Shown here: positions 29,683-38,913 of the stretch, piece after piece
Position numbering within the stretch: position 1 is the stretch's first letter
Layout: each line of letters begins with the position of its first letter
From: Accumulibacter sp.
Lineage (GTDB): Bacteria > Pseudomonadota > Gammaproteobacteria > Burkholderiales > Rhodocyclaceae
Reading direction: 5' to 3'
Assembly: GCF_023806635.1 (NCBI RefSeq)
Contig: NZ_JAMTDQ010000029.1
Span: forward strand, 62,001-126,000
DNA: 64,000 bases
Translations under genes and position numbers: made by a program
The notes under the pieces: model-generated
Told to the model about the DNA's origin: nothing
Seen by the model: only the letters and a program-made list of their open reading frames with translations
Databases searched by the model: none

Positions 29683-31530
29683 ATGCGACTCTATCTGTCT
29701 TCGACGCTTTCCGACCTGGAGGAGGAGCGGCGGGCGGTCAAGGAGGTCCTCAGCGGTCAGTACACGGTCGTCGAGAGCTACGAGGCCGATCCGCGACCAC
29801 TCTGGCAAAGCTGTGTCGCCGACGTCGCCACGTGCACGATCTACATTGGCATCGTCGGCCTGCGCTATGGATTCGTTCCGCCGGGGCAGGACAAGTCGAT
29901 CACCGAACTCGAGTTCGACGCCGCGCTGGCGGCGGGTCTGCCTTGCTTCGTCTTCGTCCGGGAAGTCGATGCCATCCCAGCCTCCCGGACCGATCTGTAT
30001 ACGAAGCAGAATGATCCGGCGCTGATCGAAGCGTTTCGCGCACGCCTGTCGTCCGGCGCGAGCGGCATCCCGCGGGCAGCGCTGTTCACCACCGCCGACG
30101 ATCTGAAGGTGAAGGTTCTCAGGGCGCTGCAGCGGCAGCCTGCGCCGGCGCTCGATCGGCCCGTCGGCCTGCCATCGCCGCCGGCCGCAGCGAAGCCCGC
30201 CGCTCCTGAGACCGCTCCACCGCCGCCATCGCCATCGCCGCCCCTGACCGAACTCCAGAAGCTGCTCAAGAGCTACCTGCAGGACAACTGGGCAGCCTTG
30301 CACGGTCATCCGGCATTCCTGCGCGCCAACCTGTTCCCGGACCTCGATCAGGCGGTGCCGCTCAGCGCCGAGCGCGTCTTCGCCATGGCGTGCGATGGTC
30401 CGCCGATCGAGCTTCTGCTCGGCGCCCGGGAATTTTTTCAAGCCAGGGCGGCGAGGGGTGTCTCGCCCGCATCGTCCGTCTCCGAAAGCGACGGCATCGT
30501 CTGCAGCGCCATCGTCCGTTGCGCGCTCGTCGCCGCCGAGCGTTACGTCAGGGGCAAGGTCGACGGCGGTGCGCATCGCGATCACGACCCCGTGTGGAGT
30601 TCCGATCATCTGGTGGCATGCATCGAAGCCGCGGTGCGGCTGGGCTTTGGGCTGTGTTTTTCGCCAGGGAGCCCGCAGCCCGAGAATGTCTTCCGCCTCG
30701 TCCATCCGGTTCCGGAACCCGGAGTGGCGGGGGAAGAAGGCGCCGCGCTCTCGGCGGCTGAACTCCTGGCAACGATCGAGCGGCGCGAGTTCCAGACCGG
30801 TCAGGACTATGACCCCGATTACCTGCGCGCCTTCATTCGACGTCGTGCCAGCGGACTTGGTACGGCGCTGGTGGTGAGCACGGATGCGGCAGGCCGTTTC
30901 GAGAGCGCGGAACGGCGAGCGGAACTTCTCAAGGATCTGCGCGAGCAGTTCGATCTGCGCACCTTCTTCCAGCGGCGAGGCGAAGACGCGATGCCGCCCT
31001 GGGCCAGACAGATGCAGGACAGCCTGCTGCATGCGCTTGGCCCGGTTCTTGACATCTCGCTGCACAAGGCGGCGATCACGGAGAAAGACATGGCCCAAAG
31101 AGAATCCGAACGTGCCGCTGCACCGGCGGTCACCAACCTCACGATGACTTTCAACGCCCCCGTCGGCACGCTCGCGCAGGCCAACGCCCCGGGGGCGCAA
31201 GCCGCCGCCCGCGACATCGTCAACGGTCTGCAGGGCGCCGAGTTGCTGCAGGTCCTGGCGGCGGTGCAACGGGCGATCGATGCCTGCGCCGCGCAGCCTG
31301 GCGACGCGGCGCAGCGGCGGCTGATGGAGCAGGAACTCGATGAGGTCCGCACGGTGTTGCAGGGAGAAGGGCGCTCGGCGTCCGATGCCAAACTCGTCAA
31401 GCGCTGTCTCGACGGTGTCGAGACGAGCGCCAGGGCATTGAGCAACGGCCGCGCGATCGTCGAAACACTCGCCCCCGTGTGGGCCGGCCTCAAGCAGTCC
31501 TGGCCCGCTTTTCTCGCGCTCTTCAACTGA
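29683..31530 (+). CDS. DUF4062-domain protein, first gene of the DGR run
   Basis: The protein (615 aa from the ATG at 29683, GGAG nine bases upstream) begins MRLYLSSTLSDLEEERRAVK, the start of a DUF4062 domain (about residues 1-90; related to TIR/SEFIR-like folds used in signalling and conflict proteins). A proline-rich linker follows (about 160-190), then a helical region without recognised domain, and a C-terminal part (about 485-615) with TNLTMTFNAPVGTLAQANAP and a helical bundle. The frame is open upstream to 29350, but the DUF4062 consensus starts at 29683. It precedes the MoxR gene by 15 bases, so it is likely in the same operon. A sensor or effector role is inference. Confidence 0.8.
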   Translation: MRLYLSSTLSDLEEERRAVKEVLSGQYTVVESYEADPRPLWQSCVADVATCTIYIGIVGLRYGFVPPGQDKSITELEFDAALAAGLPCFVFVREVDAIPASRTDLYTKQNDPALIEAFRARLSSGASGIPRAALFTTADDLKVKVLRALQRQPAPALDRPVGLPSPPAAAKPAAPETAPPPPSPSPPLTELQKLLKSYLQDNWAALHGHPAFLRANLFPDLDQAVPLSAERVFAMACDGPPIELLLGAREFFQARAARGVSPASSVSESDGIVCSAIVRCALVAAERYVRGKVDGGAHRDHDPVWSSDHLVACIEAAVRLGFGLCFSPGSPQPENVFRLVHPVPEPGVAGEEGAALSAAELLATIERREFQTGQDYDPDYLRAFIRRRASGLGTALVVSTDAAGRFESAERRAELLKDLREQFDLRTFFQRRGEDAMPPWARQMQDSLLHALGPVLDISLHKAAITEKDMAQRESERAAAPAVTNLTMTFNAPVGTLAQANAPGAQAAARDIVNGLQGAELLQVLAAVQRAIDACAAQPGDAAQRRLMEQELDEVRTVLQGEGRSASDAKLVKRCLDGVETSARALSNGRAIVETLAPVWAGLKQSWPAFLALFN

Positions 31531-32598: not shown

Positions 32599-35484
32599 AT
32601 GAGCCCTCGCGGTCTCGCCGGCCGCTCCGACCTGCTGCGCGCCGCGGTCGCCGTCCACGGCGCGCAAGCCGTCGGCAGCGACGAGGCGATCGCCGCCGCC
32701 CTCGCGCCGCTCGCCCGCCTGCTCGCCCTGCATCCGCAGCCGCAGCGGGCGGAACGGAGCGATCTGCCGGTCGACGAGCGGCAGCAAGCCGCCGCCGCCA
32801 GCGGCCGCAGCGGATCCGGGGCGCCGGCCAGCGCCGCCAGCCGCCGGCTACCGCTGTCGGCGGCGCATTTCGCGCTCGTCGAGTACCGTGTCGAGGCCGC
32901 GGCGACGCCGCCGCACAGCCAGCCGTTGCCGCCGCTGACCCGCCTCGACTGCCAGCCGCGGCGATCCGGCAGCGCGCCGCACTCGCCGCTGGTTGGCCGC
33001 ACGCGGCTGTGGCCGGCGTTGCAGCGCGCGCTGGCGTCGCCGCGACGCGGCCCCCTCGACGTGCCGGCGCTGGTCGGCGAACTGTCGCGCGCGCGTTCGC
33101 CGCAGCGCCTGCCGCGGCGGCTGCTGCGCCGCTGGGGCGGCGAGATGGACGTCGTCGTCGATGTCGCGCAGCGGCTCGTTCCCTACGACGCCGACTACCG
33201 CGAGTTGCTCGGCGAAGTGCGCCGCCGGCACGGCGAGGGCGGTCTGCGGCTGTGGGTCGTCGATGACTCGCCGTTCACCGCGCGCGCGGTCGCTGCGCCG
33301 GGTTGCGCGTCGCCGCCCGCCGCAGCCGGGCCGATTCCCTTGCCGCCGCCGGCGACGCGCGTGCTGATCCTCGGCGACCTCGGGCTGCTCGCCGGCGATC
33401 CCGCGCGCGCCGCGGCGTGGCAGGAGTTCACGCGCCGCCTCGCCGCGCACGGCGCGCTGCCCGTCGCCTGGCTGCCGATGTCACCGGCGCTGGTGCCGGC
33501 GGAGGCGCTGCGTCACGCTGCGCTGCACTGCCTCGATGGCGCGCATGGCCTGCGCGCGTTGCGCGCGCGCAACGCCGGCACGGCGACGGCGCCTGTTTCG
33601 CCACCCGTCGCTCCGTCTGGCGACGCGCCGATCGGCGCGGCGGCGCGGCACCCGCTGCTGCCGGCGCTGCTGACGCGGCTGGCCTGCTGCGTCCGCGTCG
33701 AACCCGGATTGCTGCGCGCCTTGCGCCGTATCGACGCCGATACCGCCGCCGAACCCGGCCTCGAGGCGATCGCCTGGTCGTACGCGCCGGCGGTCGCCGC
33801 CGGCAGCCGCTTCTGTGAACTCAGCCCGGCCGGCGTCGCCGACTACCGCGATCGCTTCTCCGGACTCGCCGCCGCCGAGCAGCAGGAAATCCTGCGCCGG
33901 ATCCTCGACGCGCACGCCTGGCGCGGTCGCGCGACCGAAAGCGCCGAACTGCTGATCTGGCAGGCGCATGCCAGGCCGGAAGCGGCCGGCGAAGAATTCG
34001 GCGGCCGGCTCGGCGAAGCGCGCGACTGGTTCGCGCGTTTCGGCGCCGCTGCCGCGGAGACGGTGGGCGACGCCGCCGGCTATGCCGGCGATCTGTTCGA
34101 TCGCCATGGCGGCGACCGCGCGTGGATCGAGGCGAACTCGTCGCTGCTGGCGCCGATCTGGGCGCTGGCCGGCGTCGACGACATCCCCGACGGCCTGCGG
34201 CCGGCCGACGTCGCCGCCGCCCGGCGGCGTGCCGGCAGCGAGGCGGTGGCGAGCAGGTGGAGGCTGCGGCAGCAGGACGATCGCTTCGTCCTGCTGCCCG
34301 ATCGCGGCGAAGAGCTTGCGGGTCGCTGGCCGGCGTTGACCCTCGAGGGTGGTGCCGTCTGCAGCCTGCGCGGCGATGCCGGCTCGCGGCAGCGATGGAT
34401 CGAAGCGCGCGCGGCGCCGTTGACGCTGCCGCTCGCAGACGCGGCGCAGCTTTCGGCGATCGCCCTCGACAGTGGCCGCCGCCATCATCGTCTGGCGCGC
34501 CTGCAGCGCCCGCCGTGGGCGAAGGAGCTGGGACGCGACAGCCACGGTCTGTATCTCGACGTCGAACTCAATGGCGTCGTCCAGCGTTTTCGCTGGATCG
34601 ACCCGGGAGAGTTCCTGATGGGGTCGCCGGGCGATGAACCCGGGCGCGAGGAGAACGAGGGACCGCGCCACCGCGTGCGCCTGACCCAGGGCTTCTGGCT
34701 CGCCGACACCGCGTGCACGCAGGCGCTGTGGCGGGCGGTGATGGGCGGAAGCAATCCGAGCGCTTTTCAGGACGACGCGCGCAACCCGGTCGAGAACGTG
34801 TCGTGGGATGACACGAGTGCCTTCCTGCAACGGGTGTCTTCGCTGGTTCCCGGCGTCGTCGCCGAACTGCCGACCGAGGCCGAGTGGGAATACGCGTGCC
34901 GGGCGGGAAGCGAGACGCCGTTCAGTTTCGGTACGACGATCACTCCCGAGCAGGCGAACTACGATGGGAATTACCCCTATGCAGGCGGCGAGAAAGGCGT
35001 GGACCGGCAGAAGACGGTGCCGGTGAAGTCGTTCGCGCCGACCCGCTGGGGTCTGTACGAGATGCACGGCAACGTCTGGGAGTGGTGTGTCGACGGGAAG
35101 CGCGCTTACGACGGCAGCGACGAGGAGAATCCGCGCGGCCCCGAGGACGTGGGCGAGTGGCGCGTCGTGCGCGGCGGCTCGTGGGACGACGGGGCCGTGG
35201 GGCTTCGCTCCGCCTGTCGCGACGAGTGGCACCGCGCCATCCGCCTCGGCCCCCTGGGGTTTCGCTTTGCCCTGAGGTCCATCGGCCAGGAGCAGGCTGC
35301 GGGCGCGGAGCGCCCGCAGCAGGACTTCAACCCGGCGGGGCCGGAGGCCCCGCCGGGTTTGGCTGCCTTCCCGGGACGGGAAGGCAGCGTGGCTGCTTCG
35401 GCGGATGCCGAAGCAGCCACGGGCGGGCGCGGCAAGCTGGCCAAGGCGACCCCGAAGCGATCACGCAAGCAGACAAAGAAGTGA
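32599..35484 (+). CDS. DGR variable protein 1: FGE/C-type-lectin domain with unusual N-terminus
   Basis: The 961-aa protein has an N-terminal region of unknown type. Within it, residues about 183-310 (MDVVVDVAQRL ... TRVLILGDLGLLAG) look like a degenerate vWA Rossmann fold, which would fit the MoxR partner next door. Residues about 640-893 form a formylglycine-generating-enzyme/sulfatase-modifying domain (GEFLMGSPGDEPG, ELPTEAEWEYACRAG, MHGNVWEWC). The variable repeat spans residues 855-893 (RVVRGGSWDDG ... GFRFAL), placing diversified residues on the ligand surface of the C-type-lectin fold. The 68-residue tail is low-complexity, encoded by the hairpin array, and ends in KRSRKQTKK. It is coupled to moxR upstream. 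Confidence 0.9.
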   Translation: MSPRGLAGRSDLLRAAVAVHGAQAVGSDEAIAAALAPLARLLALHPQPQRAERSDLPVDERQQAAAASGRSGSGAPASAASRRLPLSAAHFALVEYRVEAAATPPHSQPLPPLTRLDCQPRRSGSAPHSPLVGRTRLWPALQRALASPRRGPLDVPALVGELSRARSPQRLPRRLLRRWGGEMDVVVDVAQRLVPYDADYRELLGEVRRRHGEGGLRLWVVDDSPFTARAVAAPGCASPPAAAGPIPLPPPATRVLILGDLGLLAGDPARAAAWQEFTRRLAAHGALPVAWLPMSPALVPAEALRHAALHCLDGAHGLRALRARNAGTATAPVSPPVAPSGDAPIGAAARHPLLPALLTRLACCVRVEPGLLRALRRIDADTAAEPGLEAIAWSYAPAVAAGSRFCELSPAGVADYRDRFSGLAAAEQQEILRRILDAHAWRGRATESAELLIWQAHARPEAAGEEFGGRLGEARDWFARFGAAAAETVGDAAGYAGDLFDRHGGDRAWIEANSSLLAPIWALAGVDDIPDGLRPADVAAARRRAGSEAVASRWRLRQQDDRFVLLPDRGEELAGRWPALTLEGGAVCSLRGDAGSRQRWIEARAAPLTLPLADAAQLSAIALDSGRRHHRLARLQRPPWAKELGRDSHGLYLDVELNGVVQRFRWIDPGEFLMGSPGDEPGREENEGPRHRVRLTQGFWLADTACTQALWRAVMGGSNPSAFQDDARNPVENVSWDDTSAFLQRVSSLVPGVVAELPTEAEWEYACRAGSETPFSFGTTITPEQANYDGNYPYAGGEKGVDRQKTVPVKSFAPTRWGLYEMHGNVWEWCVDGKRAYDGSDEENPRGPEDVGEWRVVRGGSWDDGAVGLRSACRDEWHRAIRLGPLGFRFALRSIGQEQAAGAERPQQDFNPAGPEAPPGLAAFPGREGSVAASADAEAATGGRGKLAKATPKRSRKQTKK
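35161..35276 (+). repeat. DGR variable repeat VR1
   Basis: These 116 bases align without gaps to the template repeat at 37030-37145. By my codon-by-codon reading there are 15 differences, 14 of them at template adenines (for example AAC to GAC, CTC or CCC; AGG to TGG) and one G to T. The last 21 bases (GGGGTTTCGCTTTGCCCTGAG) are identical and form the initiation-of-mutagenic-homing segment. Confidence 0.95.
35296..35421 (+). repeat. Array of four perfect hairpins after VR1
   Basis: Four long inverted repeats stand in tandem inside the 3' end of the variable-protein gene: 35296-35320 (10-bp stem, loop CGGAG), 35329-35359 (14-bp stem, loop GGA), 35362-35388 (12-bp stem, loop GGA), 35389-35420 (14-bp stem, loop GGAT). 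The first begins 20 bases after VR1. Hairpins or cruciforms next to the VR are known cis elements for DGR target recognition; the other three are unexplained. Confidence 0.85.
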
Positions 35485-35503
35485 AAGAGGAGAGCGATCA
35501 GCG

Positions 35504-35974
35504 ATGACCCTGCGTTTCTTCGCCATCCCGGCCTGCGACCCCGTGGCGGTCGAGGCCGAACTCAACCAGTTGCTCGCCGCAAGCCGGGTGCTGACGATCG
35601 ATCGGCATTTCGTCGCCTGCGGCGAGTCGTCGTTCTGGGCGGTCTGCGTGCGGATCGCCAGCGGCCCGGGTCCGCTGCCGCAAGCGCTGAAGGCCGATCA
35701 GGGCAGCGCCCGCCGCGTCGATTATCGTGAAGTGCTCAGCGAAGCCGATTTTGCCGTCTTCGCCAGGCTGCGCGAACTGCGCAAGAGCATCGCCGAGGCC
35801 GAAGGCGTTCCGTGATACGCGGTGTTCACCAACGAGCACCTGGCGAGCATGGTGCGTGGCAAGCTGAAGACGCTCGACGCGCTCGGCCGGATCGAGGGGG
35901 TGGGGCCGGGGCGAGTCGATCGCTATGGCGCGCGCTTTCTCGCGCTGCTCGAGCAGGCGCTGGCGCCGGCGTGA
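35504..35974 (+). pseudogene. HRDC-domain DGR accessory gene interrupted by TGA
   Basis: The frame starts at ATG 35504 (AGGAGAG upstream), encodes 103 residues, meets TGA at 35813-35815, then continues in the same frame for 52 more codons to TGA 35972-35974. The C-terminal part across the stop (LRELRKSIAEAEGVP / YAVFTNEHLASMVRGK / GVGPGRVDRYGARFL) is one HRDC domain, so the stop cuts the domain. HRDC proteins are known accessory factors of some DGRs, replacing Avd. Either the gene is broken, the stop is read through, or the two halves are made separately. No base deletion is needed to restore the frame. Confidence 0.82.
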
Positions 35975-35983
35975 GCAGCGCGC

Positions 35984-36991
35984 ATGCAGCGCCAGGCGAT
36001 CACCCTCGCAGCACTTGCCGAGCGCAGGAATCTCGAACTCGCGACCTGGAAGGCGGCGCGCGGCAAGAGCAGCCGGCCGGCGGTGGCGCGTTTTCTCGAT
36101 CGGCTCGACGAAAATCTCGACCGGCTTGCGGCCGACATCGTGAGCGAGCGGGCGCCGCAGGGGCGCGCGGTCCGGTTCACGATCCACGACCCCAAGCGGC
36201 GGACGATCCACGCGGCGTGTTTCGCCGACCGCGTGCTGCACCATGCGATTCTCAATCTGGCCGAGCCGCGCCTGGAGCGGATGCTGGTCGATGGCTGTCA
36301 CGCCTGCCGGCGCGGCAAGGGCGTCCATTCGGCGGTGGCCGCGGTGCAGCAGAGCTTGCGGGCATACCCGTGGTTCGCGCAGGTCGACATCGACGCCTAT
36401 TTCGCGTCGATCCGTCACGACCTGCTGCTCGAACTGCTCGCCCGACGCTTCAAGGGCGAGCCCTTCCTGCGCCTGCTGGCGCGCATCCTGACCTGCGGGG
36501 CGACGGCTGGAGCAGGCGTCGGCCTGCCGATCGGCGCGCTGACCTCGCAGCACTTCGCCAACGCCTTCCTCGACAGCGCCGACCGCCTGCTGCTCAGGCA
36601 ACCGGGTTGCGGCGGGCTGGTGCGTTACATGGACGACATCGTCTGGGGCTGCACCAGCCGGCAGGCGGCCGCGGAGAGCGTCGCGCTGCTTGCGGCGCAC
36701 CTGGCGGACGAGCGCGCGCTGAGCCTGAAGCCGCGGCGGCGCATCGCCCGCTCGGCAGAGGGGACGCAGTTCTGCGGCTTTCGCATCCGGCAGGGCGTCA
36801 TCCTCGCCAGCCGGCGCAAGCTGGCGCGCTTTCGCGCCGCGCTGCAGCGGATCGAGCGCGTCGCGGCGACCGGCACGGTGGCGGAAGCCGACCTGCAGCG
36901 CGCCAACGAACTCGCTCTGGCGACGCTCGACGGCTGCCAGAGCCTCGGTTTCCGGCAGCGGCTGTTGGCGGCGTACGAATTTCAGGTATAG
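35984..36991 (+). CDS. DGR-type reverse transcriptase
   Basis: The 335-aa enzyme has the RT palm motifs: AQVDIDAYFASI (motif A), GLPIGALTSQHFANAFLDSAD (motif B, with the IGxxxSQ form typical of DGR and group II-like RTs) and Y215-M-D-D218 (RYMDDIVWG). Size and lack of maturase or endonuclease domains fit DGR RTs, which copy the template RNA with adenine mutagenesis. It begins 10 bases after the HRDC gene and ends 33 bases before the template repeat. Confidence 0.96.
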   Translation: MQRQAITLAALAERRNLELATWKAARGKSSRPAVARFLDRLDENLDRLAADIVSERAPQGRAVRFTIHDPKRRTIHAACFADRVLHHAILNLAEPRLERMLVDGCHACRRGKGVHSAVAAVQQSLRAYPWFAQVDIDAYFASIRHDLLLELLARRFKGEPFLRLLARILTCGATAGAGVGLPIGALTSQHFANAFLDSADRLLLRQPGCGGLVRYMDDIVWGCTSRQAAAESVALLAAHLADERALSLKPRRRIARSAEGTQFCGFRIRQGVILASRRKLARFRAALQRIERVAATGTVAEADLQRANELALATLDGCQSLGFRQRLLAAYEFQV

Positions 36992-37023
36992 TGGGGCAGG
37001 GATGTCGGTCACTGCAAAGGAAA

Positions 37024-37145
37024 GCCACCCGCGTCGTGCGCGGCGGCTCGTGGAACAACGAGGCCAGGAGGCTTCGCTCCGCCTGTCGCAACGAGAGGCA
37101 CCGCGCCAACCGCAACGACAACCAGGGGTTTCGCTTTGCCCTGAG
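37024..37145 (+). repeat. DGR template repeat (TR)
   Basis: This 122-base non-coding segment lies just downstream of the RT gene and is matched by two variable repeats, 35161-35276 and 38048-38169. It is rich in AAC codons when read in the VR frame (GGSWNNEARRLRSACRNERH ...), as expected of a template whose adenines are mutated. About 20 adenines lie in the variable stretch. Unlike the VRs, it is not followed by a CGGAG-loop hairpin. Confidence 0.95.
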
Positions 37146-37324
37146 CTCGATGGAGCCAACGGCATGGACTTGCCGAGAACCATGGACCAGACGCGACGTC
37201 CTGCCGGCACGGCTTGCCGTGCCCGCGAACCGCAAGGCGCCCGGGGCGCCGGTAGGCGAGAACGGTGGATGCCGGCGCCGACAGCCCCCCGGGTCGCCGC
37301 CTCCGCCTGCCACCGCCCCGCCCG

Positions 37325-38242
37325 ATGAAGCGCGCAGCGCTCGCGACCGGCGCGCACTTTCCGTCCGAAGACGCGCGGCGGCCGCCCGTACTGCCGCCTG
37401 CCTGCGCGAGCGCCTGGGGTGACGATGCCTACGGGCTGTGGATCGACGTCGACCTGGCTGGCGTCGTGCAGCGCTGCCGCTGGATCGAACCCGGCGAGTT
37501 CATGATGGGCTCGCCGGAAGACGAGCCGGAAAGAGTTGAAGACGAAGGGCCGCGCCATCGCGTGCGCCTGACCACCGGCTTCTGGCTCGCCGACACCGCC
37601 TGCACACAGGCGCTGTGGCTGGCGGTGATGGGCGGGGACAATCCGAGCGCTTTCCAGGAAGACGCGCGCAACCCGGTCGAGAACGTGTCGTGGGATGAGG
37701 TCAGTGGGGCCGGTGGTTTCCTGCAGCGCGTGGCTGCGCTGGCGCCCGGCGTCGTCGCGGAACTGCCGACCGAGGCCGAGTGGGAGTACGCGTGCCGGGC
37801 GGGCAGCGAAACGCCGTTCCATTTCGGCGCGACGATCAGCCCGGAGCAGGCCAATTACGACGGCAACCATCCGTATGCGGGAGGCAGGAAAGGCGAGTTC
37901 CGGCAGAAGACGGTGCCGGTGAAGTCCTTTGCGCCCAATGGCTGGGGTCTCCACGAGATGCACGGCAACGTCTGGGAGTGGTGTGCCGACGGGCTCCGCG
38001 AGTACGCTGACGAGACGGTCGAGGATCCGCGTGGCCCGGAGGGCGACGCCACCCGCGTCGTGCGCGGCGGCTCTTGGTTCGTCGGGGCCTGGGGGCTTCG
38101 CTCCGCCTACCGCCTCGGGGGGCTCCGCGACTACCGCGACGACTTCCAGGGGTTTCGCTTTGCCCTGAGGTCCACCAGCCAAGAGCAGGAGGCAGGCGCG
38201 GAGCGCCTGCCTGCGGCAAGCGGGGTCACGCGGGACGCGTGA
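37325..38242 (+). CDS. DGR variable protein 2: stand-alone FGE/C-type-lectin domain
   Basis: This 305-aa protein is a near copy of the C-terminal domain of variable protein 1: GEFMMGSPEDEPE, RHRVRLTTGFWLADTACTQ, ELPTEAEWEYACRAG, MHGNVWEWC. The variable repeat spans about residues 242-282 (GGSWFVGAWGLRSAYRLGG ...). It lacks the long N-terminal region, so it may be a diffusible or partner-bound recognition module. ATG 37325 has no clear ribosome binding site; GTG 37265 with a weak upstream AGGCGAG is the alternative. The TGA lies inside the second downstream hairpin. Confidence 0.9.
   Translation: MKRAALATGAHFPSEDARRPPVLPPACASAWGDDAYGLWIDVDLAGVVQRCRWIEPGEFMMGSPEDEPERVEDEGPRHRVRLTTGFWLADTACTQALWLAVMGGDNPSAFQEDARNPVENVSWDEVSGAGGFLQRVAALAPGVVAELPTEAEWEYACRAGSETPFHFGATISPEQANYDGNHPYAGGRKGEFRQKTVPVKSFAPNGWGLHEMHGNVWEWCADGLREYADETVEDPRGPEGDATRVVRGGSWFVGAWGLRSAYRLGGLRDYRDDFQGFRFALRSTSQEQEAGAERLPAASGVTRDA
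38048..38169 (+). repeat. DGR variable repeat VR2
   Basis: It aligns gap-free over 122 bases to the template repeat. I count 20 differences, 16 at template adenines; the others are one G to T, a TGT to TAC change and a C to A. The first 26 bases and the last 26 bases (from CAGGGGTTTCGC) are identical to the template. VR1 and VR2 differ from each other mainly at the same adenine positions. Confidence 0.95.
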
Positions 38243-38247
38243 CCCCG
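38191..38247 (+). repeat. Two perfect hairpins after VR2
   Basis: 38191-38211 has an 8-bp stem with the same CGGAG loop as the first hairpin after VR1 and starts 21 bases after VR2. 38221-38247 has a 12-bp stem and a GGA loop and contains the stop codon of variable protein 2. The 20-21 base spacers after VR1 and VR2 are also similar. The second hairpin could double as a terminator. Confidence 0.85.
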
Positions 38248-38461: not shown

Positions 38462-38686
38462 TCACGCTGCCAACAGATCGTGCAGCCGGGTGGCTGTCTG
38501 CTCCGGCACCTCCACGGCCTCGAAAAGAGAAGCCGGGTAGAGAAAGTCCTCGCCGGAGTCGTCGATGATCCGCAGCATGCTGTGGCTGTCCGCCGGGGCA
38601 AGCACTTCATAGAGCCGGCCGAGGGTCAGGTCATCCGTCGAGAACTCGCCAAATCCTTCGCGAGACAGGCAAACCACAAACCTCAT
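38462..38686 (-). CDS. Small hypothetical protein, second of a coupled pair
   Basis: The 74-aa acidic protein (MRFVVCLSREGFGEF ...) is not recognised. Its ATG at 38686 overlaps the TGA of the preceding gene (ATGA), and AAAGGA lies six bases upstream, which decides this start over ATG 38692. No membrane segment or signal is seen. The coupled small-gene pair in an accessory island could be a toxin-antitoxin module or phage-derived genes, but no family is recognised. Confidence 0.7.
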   Translation of the reverse strand: MRFVVCLSREGFGEFSTDDLTLGRLYEVLAPADSHSMLRIIDDSGEDFLYPASLFEAVEVPEQTATRLHDLLAA

Positions 38687-38913
38687 AGCCATTCCTTTAT
38701 CTTGAGTTTCACCTTGCCGATGCCATGCGCCTCATACCAGTGCAGCTCGGCCCTGGCGGTCGTTCCATCAAGCAGACGCACCGTGGCGATCCCCTTCTTC
38801 TTCCGCCAACAGCCAACCCCGTATCGCTGCCGCAGCAGGGCAAGCTCCCGGATGCCACTGCCTTCGGCGATGGTCTGGACATCCACGATCCTGCCGACAA
38901 TACAGAATTCCAT
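38683..38913 (-). CDS. Small hypothetical protein, first of a coupled pair
   Basis: The 76-aa basic protein (MEFCIVGRIVDVQTIAEG ... KVKLKIKEWL) is predicted to be mostly beta strands with a KKKG turn. It is translationally coupled to the 74-aa partner through a 4-base overlap. It resembles no family I can name. The basic/acidic pairing of the two products is compatible with a complex. Confidence 0.7.
   Translation of the reverse strand: MEFCIVGRIVDVQTIAEGSGIRELALLRQRYGVGCWRKKKGIATVRLLDGTTARAELHWYEAHGIGKVKLKIKEWL

Follow-up and report, generated by a model that had tools for sequence, protein, structure and literature searches.

A diversity-generating retroelement (DGR) with one template repeat (TR) and two flanking target genes, both ending in FGE/C-type-lectin domains, is present in a 64,000-nucleotide stretch of Accumulibacter sp. 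(assembly GCF_023806635.1, contig NZ_JAMTDQ010000029.1, positions 62,001-126,000, forward strand), hereafter the window, to which all coordinates refer. The genes follow the order DUF4062 - MoxR - target 1 - HRDC - reverse transcriptase (RT) - TR - target 2 (Table 1), and each target carries one variable repeat (VR1 and VR2). The element probably tunes the sensor of a defence system composed of a MoxR ATPase, a vWA-like domain and a NADase. This reading builds on the observed adenine pattern, RT, hypervariability of homologues, hairpin placement and gene order, to which a predicted vWA-like fold and a predicted NADase are added, the remaining steps being inferred. Several ingredients are already in print, namely one-template/two-target DGRs, FGE targets, HRDC proteins, the MoxR context and Accumulibacter hosts (PMC3521204, PMC4891356, PMC10907252, PMC7159879). 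The initial annotation recognized the DGR itself; the present analysis adds the HRDC gene with its stop codon, the hairpins, the neighbouring MoxR and DUF4062 genes and the history of the template.

Template and variable repeats

The repeats were compared exactly and without gaps, and enrichment was assessed with a hypergeometric test. Over the 116 bases shared by VR1 and the template (37030-37145), 14 of 15 differences fall on the 21 template adenines (p 4.0e-12), and over the 122 bases shared with VR2, 16 of 20 fall on the 22 adenines (p 7.0e-12), giving 30 of 35 for the two repeats together. The hand counts of the initial annotation are thus exact, its placing of one template and two variable repeats at the C-terminal ends of FGE/C-type-lectin domains is confirmed, and the lack of adenine enrichment that it had named as grounds for withdrawal was looked for and the opposite found. 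Its repeat length of 122 bases stands for VR2; VR1 pairs with 116 template bases. Within these 116 bases, 20 of the 21 adenines are altered in at least one VR, and in both target frames all 21 stand at the first or second position of a codon. The sole non-adenine difference of VR1 is a G>T change at 37067, and the four of VR2 lie at 37050, 37085, 37086 and 37106. Each VR stands where a Pfam FGE-sulfatase domain ends, and the RT, TR, both VRs and both target frames are intact in the window. The reading as a DGR in which a single template serves two FGE/C-type-lectin genes, one on each side, is supported. When the whole genome of the strain (4.47 Mb, 119 contigs) was searched with the template, only TR, VR1 and VR2 rose above noise, the next match covering 35 template bases at an E-value of 0.01; the idea of additional targets outside the locus was accordingly rejected.

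Three homologous copies within about 3 kb might also be expected if paralogous FGE genes had recombined with each other and with a pseudogene copy, with no retrohoming. This explanation is refuted by the adenine bias and deserves practically no credence: in each copy it is the template adenines that differ, the copies are separated by an RT of the DGR type, and the same pattern recurs in relatives. Among 80 related loci, fetched by RT similarity and examined with a script that sought repeats with single-base-biased differences, 62 contained adenine-type TR-VR pairs. The order VR - RT - TR - VR is kept in 17 of the 24 nearest loci (L034-L057), and the script returned no adenine-type pair for L036, L043 and L049.

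Reverse transcriptase and hypervariability of homologues

The RT contains the motifs YMDD and IGALTSQ, the latter fitting [ILV]GxxxSQ, as claimed in the initial annotation, and its grouping supports the same assignment. In a maximum-likelihood tree of 31 RTs, a branch with 100/100 support has on one side 23 DGR RTs (the window, 19 related loci, Bordetella phage BPP-1 brt, pPAES01 and ANMV-1), from which the three group II and the five retron-like RTs each stay separate. Profile scores of the window RT are under both cut-offs, 103 bits against 300 for group II and 34.6 against 235 for retron St85. A group II intron or retron origin, the other outcome that would have overturned the first assignment, is rejected by the tree and these scores, the RT having joined 22 other DGR RTs instead. 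Its best relative of solved structure is 8ub7 (1e-25; the next, 8e-10). Two more RT matches were detected in the genome of the strain (E-values 7e-10 and 2.5e-9), and since the group II model gives them 262 and 207 bits, the window RT is the only one of its kind found there. The PADLOC models among the 25 of 44 RT matches listed were RT and DRT models and Cas1-, CRISPR- and homing-endonuclease-type models, none of them named DGR.

The nearest full-length RT, 91% identical, belongs to Candidatus Accumulibacter contiguus, a member of the same genus (locus L034, contig C68 of genome G007), and RT matches at an E-value of 1e-20 or better were obtained in 16 of 28 genomes of the genus. The genome of C. 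contiguus holds two distinct DGRs of this family, L034 and L046. Dore et al. (2024, PMC10907252) count Accumulibacter among the hosts that carry several related DGRs.

The residues of seven close homologues per target, taken from the top of the hit lists, were compared with those of the window. At codons with template adenines, agreement was found in only 24 of 98 cells for target 2 and 11 of 98 for target 1. At the other VR codons it reached 155/168 and 153/168, and over the 180 residues before the VR, 1106/1260 and 1052/1254, respectively. Since agreement is low at the adenine codons only, variation is concentrated on the codons predicted by the template. This hypervariability bears only indirectly on present mutagenic retrohoming, which is putative for this locus.

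Template history

Template letters were compared across six related loci. The related templates have A at 37085 (five of six), C at 37086 (six of six) and A at 37106 (six of six), positions at which the window TR reads G, T and C, respectively; T at 37050 is found in a single one of the six (L125). The four non-adenine letters of VR2 are exactly these related-template letters, and VR2 was therefore probably copied from an older template. At these sites VR1 has the letters of the present window template. The simplest reading of these letters is that VR2 was last written from the older template, that the template then changed and that VR1 was written later. Since VR1 agrees with the template of the window at sites where the sister templates differ, homing appears to have continued after the template change, and this order would place homing within the lineage of the window. 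The non-adenine letter of VR1 at 37067 was matched by none of the six related templates. Two of the three well-supported template changes affect former adenines (the polarity being inferred), which makes back-copying into the template one possible route by which it may have changed.

Hairpins downstream of the variable repeats

Four perfect hairpins, whose stems measure 11, 14, 12 and 15 bp, follow VR1, and two, of 10 and 12 bp, follow VR2, so that a hairpin or cruciform, a mark of DGRs, lies just downstream of each VR. The six stems differ, and the loop is constantly GGA, once GGAT. In the 64-kb window these are the only GGA-type hairpins of at least 8 bp (loop of 3-4 bases) on the same strand, and hairpins of that size with the complementary loop are absent from it. 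All four VR1 hairpins are coding in target 1, and much of the C-terminal tail of this protein is thus written by hairpin DNA. The inner 8 bp of the stem of the second VR1 hairpin, GCGGGGCC, are identical to the stem of the BPP-1 DGR hairpin, which may be chance in GC-rich DNA. Another hairpin, with a CTTG loop, is found about 60 bases after the template (37145-37240), with 7 bp in the window and 10 bp in L125, and is possibly part of the template RNA.

The same arrangement was sought in 24 loci (the window, L034-L042 and L044-L057), in 42 zones of 250 bases after the VRs; L043 was omitted because none of its VRs had been mapped, and for L036 and L049 the limits of the zones were chosen manually. 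GGA-type hairpins of at least 8 bp numbered 30 in the zones and two in the other 287 kb, whereas shuffling the zones yielded 0.02 on average and never more than one in 200 rounds. Without the window, 24 were in the zones and two outside, in L039 and L048. These figures are not fully independent, as it was the window that suggested the GGA loop and orthologous loci are among those counted. With stems of at least 7 bp, 19 zones had at least one hairpin, nine had at least two and 23 had none. The second C. contiguus DGR (L046) has five and three GGA hairpins after its VRs. The 150 bases after the template contain such a GGA hairpin in only one of 21 loci (L038, 7 bp). In more distant DGRs, GGA-type hairpins of at least 6 bp followed three of the 36 VRs scanned (L068 once, L074 twice). 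As a positive control, the scan recovered the BPP-1 hairpin GCGGGGCC[GAAA], 4 bases after the VR.

In BPP-1, efficient homing depends on the hairpin, the sequence of its loop matters, and GRNA was given as the loop consensus (Guo et al., PMC3240598); a 2026 study described homing without the hairpin as severely, not completely, impaired (PMC12875486). The hairpins of the window may mark the targets for cDNA homing. Rows of hairpins at VRs acting as homing signals were not found described in the available parts of PMC8144416, PMC12875486, PMC6642488, PMC7517822 and PMC10907252, open-licence literature in which an absence weighs little.

Dore et al. reported tandem inverted repeats resembling miniature inverted-repeat transposable elements at Thiohalocapsa DGR loci (PMC10907252), and the hairpin rows could likewise be remnants of transposons and not homing signals. 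We regard this as improbable, since the stems vary while the loop stays GGA and the hairpins stand just after VRs in other species too. In searches of the genome of the strain in which 40 of 70 candidates were scored in one run and 40 of 41 in the other, the only matches of the two arrays were to themselves, to one another (33 bases, 85%) and to short stretches at chance level; neither array had a further full-length copy among the candidates scored, which also led to the rejection of dispersed genomic repeats. Transcription terminators were rejected as well, as the VR1 hairpins lie within the reading frame of target 1 and, in the sequence inspected, none of the six is followed by a T-run (a dedicated terminator scan was not part of the analysis).

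MoxR, a predicted vWA-like domain and a predicted DUF4062 effector

A MoxR-type ATPase gene is situated directly before target 1. The N-terminus of target 1 gave vWA as the best match in a fold search with an AlphaFold2 model; Pfam returned no vWA over the cut-off, and the DxSxS motif is absent. A degenerate vWA fold, adjoining the MoxR gene, is predicted from this model. The gene before MoxR encodes a protein with an N-terminal DUF4062 domain (Pfam 63.6 bits, cut-off 24.7), in which conserved Glu is present, the stretch SITELEF being at least 95% conserved among 22 aligned proteins. DUF4062 is described in a 2026 preprint as a TIR-like NADase family that forms an antiphage system (PMC13174449), and the window protein is predicted from its sequence to be a NADase, the activity being that shown in other family members.

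Full-length homologues of the DUF4062 protein were found, and two relatives (P0186, P0188) keep its C-terminal module with a SEFIR/TIR domain instead. In the 28 genomes of the genus, matches to this module came from nine, and in all nine the module adjoins a MoxR match. Its N-terminal partner is DUF4062 in seven, SEFIR/TIR in one and none seen in one (G004); the SEFIR/TIR swap is that of C. contiguus (G007), at the nearest sister DGR. In two other proteins (P0032, P0196), DUF4062 is fused directly to an FGE domain. The swap of two TIR-like effectors on one module, together with the fusion to the target domain, suggests that effector and sensor belong to one system.

Accessory gene and signs of decay

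The Pfam HRDC profile aligns to the gene before the RT on both sides of an in-frame TGA, with positions 2-22 before it and 24-68 after it. A stop at this codon occurs in none of 40 other rows, some of which are the same locus fetched twice, and a conserved recoded TGA was rejected on this ground. An assembly error may be the source of the stop. Only 9 bases separate HRDC and RT, leaving no Avd there. HRDC proteins accompany the DGRs of Treponema denticola (PMC4891356). An accessory gene is common in DGRs but does not define them, so membership stands despite the interrupted HRDC.

Five related loci have lost parts of the RT while FGE target matches remain. In L125, from the single-contig genome G014, the middle of the RT including YMDD is lost in frame, and likewise in L126; the remnants comprise residues 1-134 in L055, 188-335 in L130 and about 132-223 in L136. 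Both targets of G014 are open (960 and 325 residues), and target 1 of L130 (G006) is split over two frames. The frame-keeping deletions of L125 and L126 alone are too few to claim a selected trait. In L124 the HRDC match ends at residue 78 and an RT match starts nearby at about query residue 55, as if a deletion had fused the genes. Degenerate DGR loci have also been reported in Thiohalocapsa by Dore et al. (PMC10907252).

Proposed function and competing explanations

According to the function that we consider probable, the RT would copy the template with errors at adenines, and the copies would be written into the ends of the two flanking FGE/C-type-lectin genes, the hairpins marking the VRs for cDNA homing. 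The two lectin proteins would then act as tunable sensors whose VR surface binds a ligand or antigen. Binding might be relayed through the vWA part to MoxR, which would release the NADase, with loss of NAD as the outcome.

Some observations weigh against this function. No intact accessory gene, Avd or HRDC, is present, the HRDC frame being cut by the TGA, and in this genome the element may by now work more slowly or not at all. In addition, module-MoxR pairs occur in a genome in which no such RT was found (G003) and on another contig (G027, C2).

The first of these points, together with the five related loci with RT lesions, would suit a decaying, frozen DGR, whose VRs were written in the past and whose broken machinery has left two fixed lectin genes. 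This is a serious possibility that we nonetheless hold to be less likely than the function proposed above, since in the window neither the RT, TR and VRs nor the frame of either target shows damage and the letters of VR1 point to homing after the template change. The second point would suit an ordinary DGR of known lineage, with targets for surface adhesion or biofilm recognition and with MoxR and DUF4062 as chance neighbours, and DGR-diversified C-type-lectin proteins are known to have other jobs, such as phage receptor binding (PMC10743442). This explanation seems unlikely given the position of MoxR before target 1, the MoxR homologues in 17 of the 24 nearest loci, the constant adjacency of effector module and MoxR in the genus and the existence of DUF4062-FGE fusions.

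An extended form of the defence-system reading can be offered tentatively, as somewhat less likely than the frozen element. In it, the locus would be a self-rewriting immune receptor, in which a lectin on a degenerate vWA adaptor signals through MoxR to a DUF4062 (or SEFIR/TIR) NADase; the GGA hairpins would be multi-copy homing beacons that pick out the targets and spare the template, and lineages would later, and repeatedly, break the writing machinery, locking a useful sensor.

Comparison with known systems

One-template, two-target DGRs of this layout have been published (PMC10907252, PMC3521204). The closest known relatives are the clade 5A DGRs, e.g., Thiohalocapsa DGR 8 (PMC10907252), which like that of the window reside in aggregate-forming hosts; the window DGR is placed with them by layout only. 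Their N-terminal extension is described as free of predicted domains, whereas that of the window is predicted to be vWA-like, and their effectors are named as TIR, trypsin-like and caspase-like, against DUF4062 here. The VMAP ternary conflict systems (Kaur et al. 2020, PMC7159879) share MoxR, a vWA fused to a DGR-diversified FGS/FGE domain and a third, effector component. In the window, the vWA is degenerate and only predicted, and the third component is a DUF4062 protein, or a SEFIR/TIR protein with the shared C-terminal module in one relative, in neither of which Pfam detected a VMAP domain. The system may work like a VMAP system.

The BPP-1 DGR of Bordetella phage (L155; PMC3240598) shares RT, TR, VR and, immediately behind the VR, a hairpin rich in GC; it has one annotated VR, a GRNA-type tetraloop and Avd, whereas the window has two VRs, four plus two tandem GGA/GGAT hairpins and HRDC. 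The pPAES01 DGR of Prosthecochloris aestuarii (L158) has the order FGE - HRDC - RT - FGE, as in the window. Unlike the window it also has an annotated avd gene, and the scan of the 120 bases around the ends of its two FGE genes detected no hairpin of at least 7 bp with a loop of 3-4 bases. The antiphage NADase Swarozyc (PMC13174449) shares DUF4062 with a TIR-like fold and auxiliary parts; it senses the phage portal, whereas the window has a DGR-diversified protein and MoxR alongside. The terms 'MoxR' and 'retroelement' are absent from the main text of that paper, and among open-licence papers, in which an absence weighs little, none was found that joins DUF4062 with MoxR or with a DGR. The cassette is of a known kind; its effector is likely a new choice, and the hairpin rows beside its targets are unusual.

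Features of the locus and the window

Table 1. Features of the DGR locus and its neighbouring genes, in window coordinates
Feature	Position	Strand	Evidence
DUF4062 protein, 615 residues from ATG 29683; predicted TIR-like NADase effector	29683..31530	+	Pfam DUF4062 2e-17
MoxR-type AAA ATPase, 350 residues	31546..32598	+	Pfam AAA_5 1.9e-15; bpMoxR 37.1 bits, cut-off 27
Target gene 1, 961 residues	32599..35484	+	Pfam FGE 9.5e-41; models and fold searches
Variable repeat VR1	35161..35276	+	15 differences to TR, 14 at adenines
Array of four tandem hairpins	35296..35421	+	35296-35320 (GGA), 35329-35359 (GGA), 35362-35388 (GGA) and 35388-35421 (GGAT loop)
HRDC-domain accessory gene, in-frame TGA 35813-35815	35504..35974	+	Pfam HRDC profile either side of stop
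DGR reverse transcriptase, 335 residues, YMDD, IGALTSQ	35984..36991	+	Motifs, tree, structure match
Template repeat TR	37024..37145	+	Repeat comparison, genome search
Target gene 2, 305 residues from ATG 37325 (mechanical open reading frame from 37265)	37325..38242	+	Pfam FGE 2.8e-41
Variable repeat VR2	38048..38169	+	20 differences to TR, 16 at adenines
Two GGA-loop hairpins	38190..38247	+	38190-38212 and 38221-38247; second spans target 2 stop codon

Target 1 comprises a predicted vWA-like part (residues about 177-320), helical and beta parts, the FGE/C-type-lectin domain with VR1 (666-891) and the hairpin-coded tail. Target 2 consists of the FGE/C-type-lectin domain with VR2 alone; its start at ATG 37325 agrees with the lengths of its seven closest homologues (P0002-P0008, 297-306 residues). 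No Rfam family at gathering score and no tRNA was found in the window. Just past the element, the minus strand contains two small adjoining open reading frames of 76 residues each (38462-38913).

Implications

Old template letters kept in the VRs make a sequence of homing events readable, and the hairpin rows provide a natural series, from zero to five per target, for asking what role the hairpin plays in homing. The antigen-sensor model for DGR proteins still awaits a test according to the abstract of PMC10907252. The DUF4062 effector makes this model simply testable, as one may ask whether a lectin ligand leads to loss of NAD through MoxR. If the extended reading were true, the locus would give bacteria an immune receptor able to rewrite the surface with which it meets antigens, and the action of this receptor would end in the destruction of NAD.

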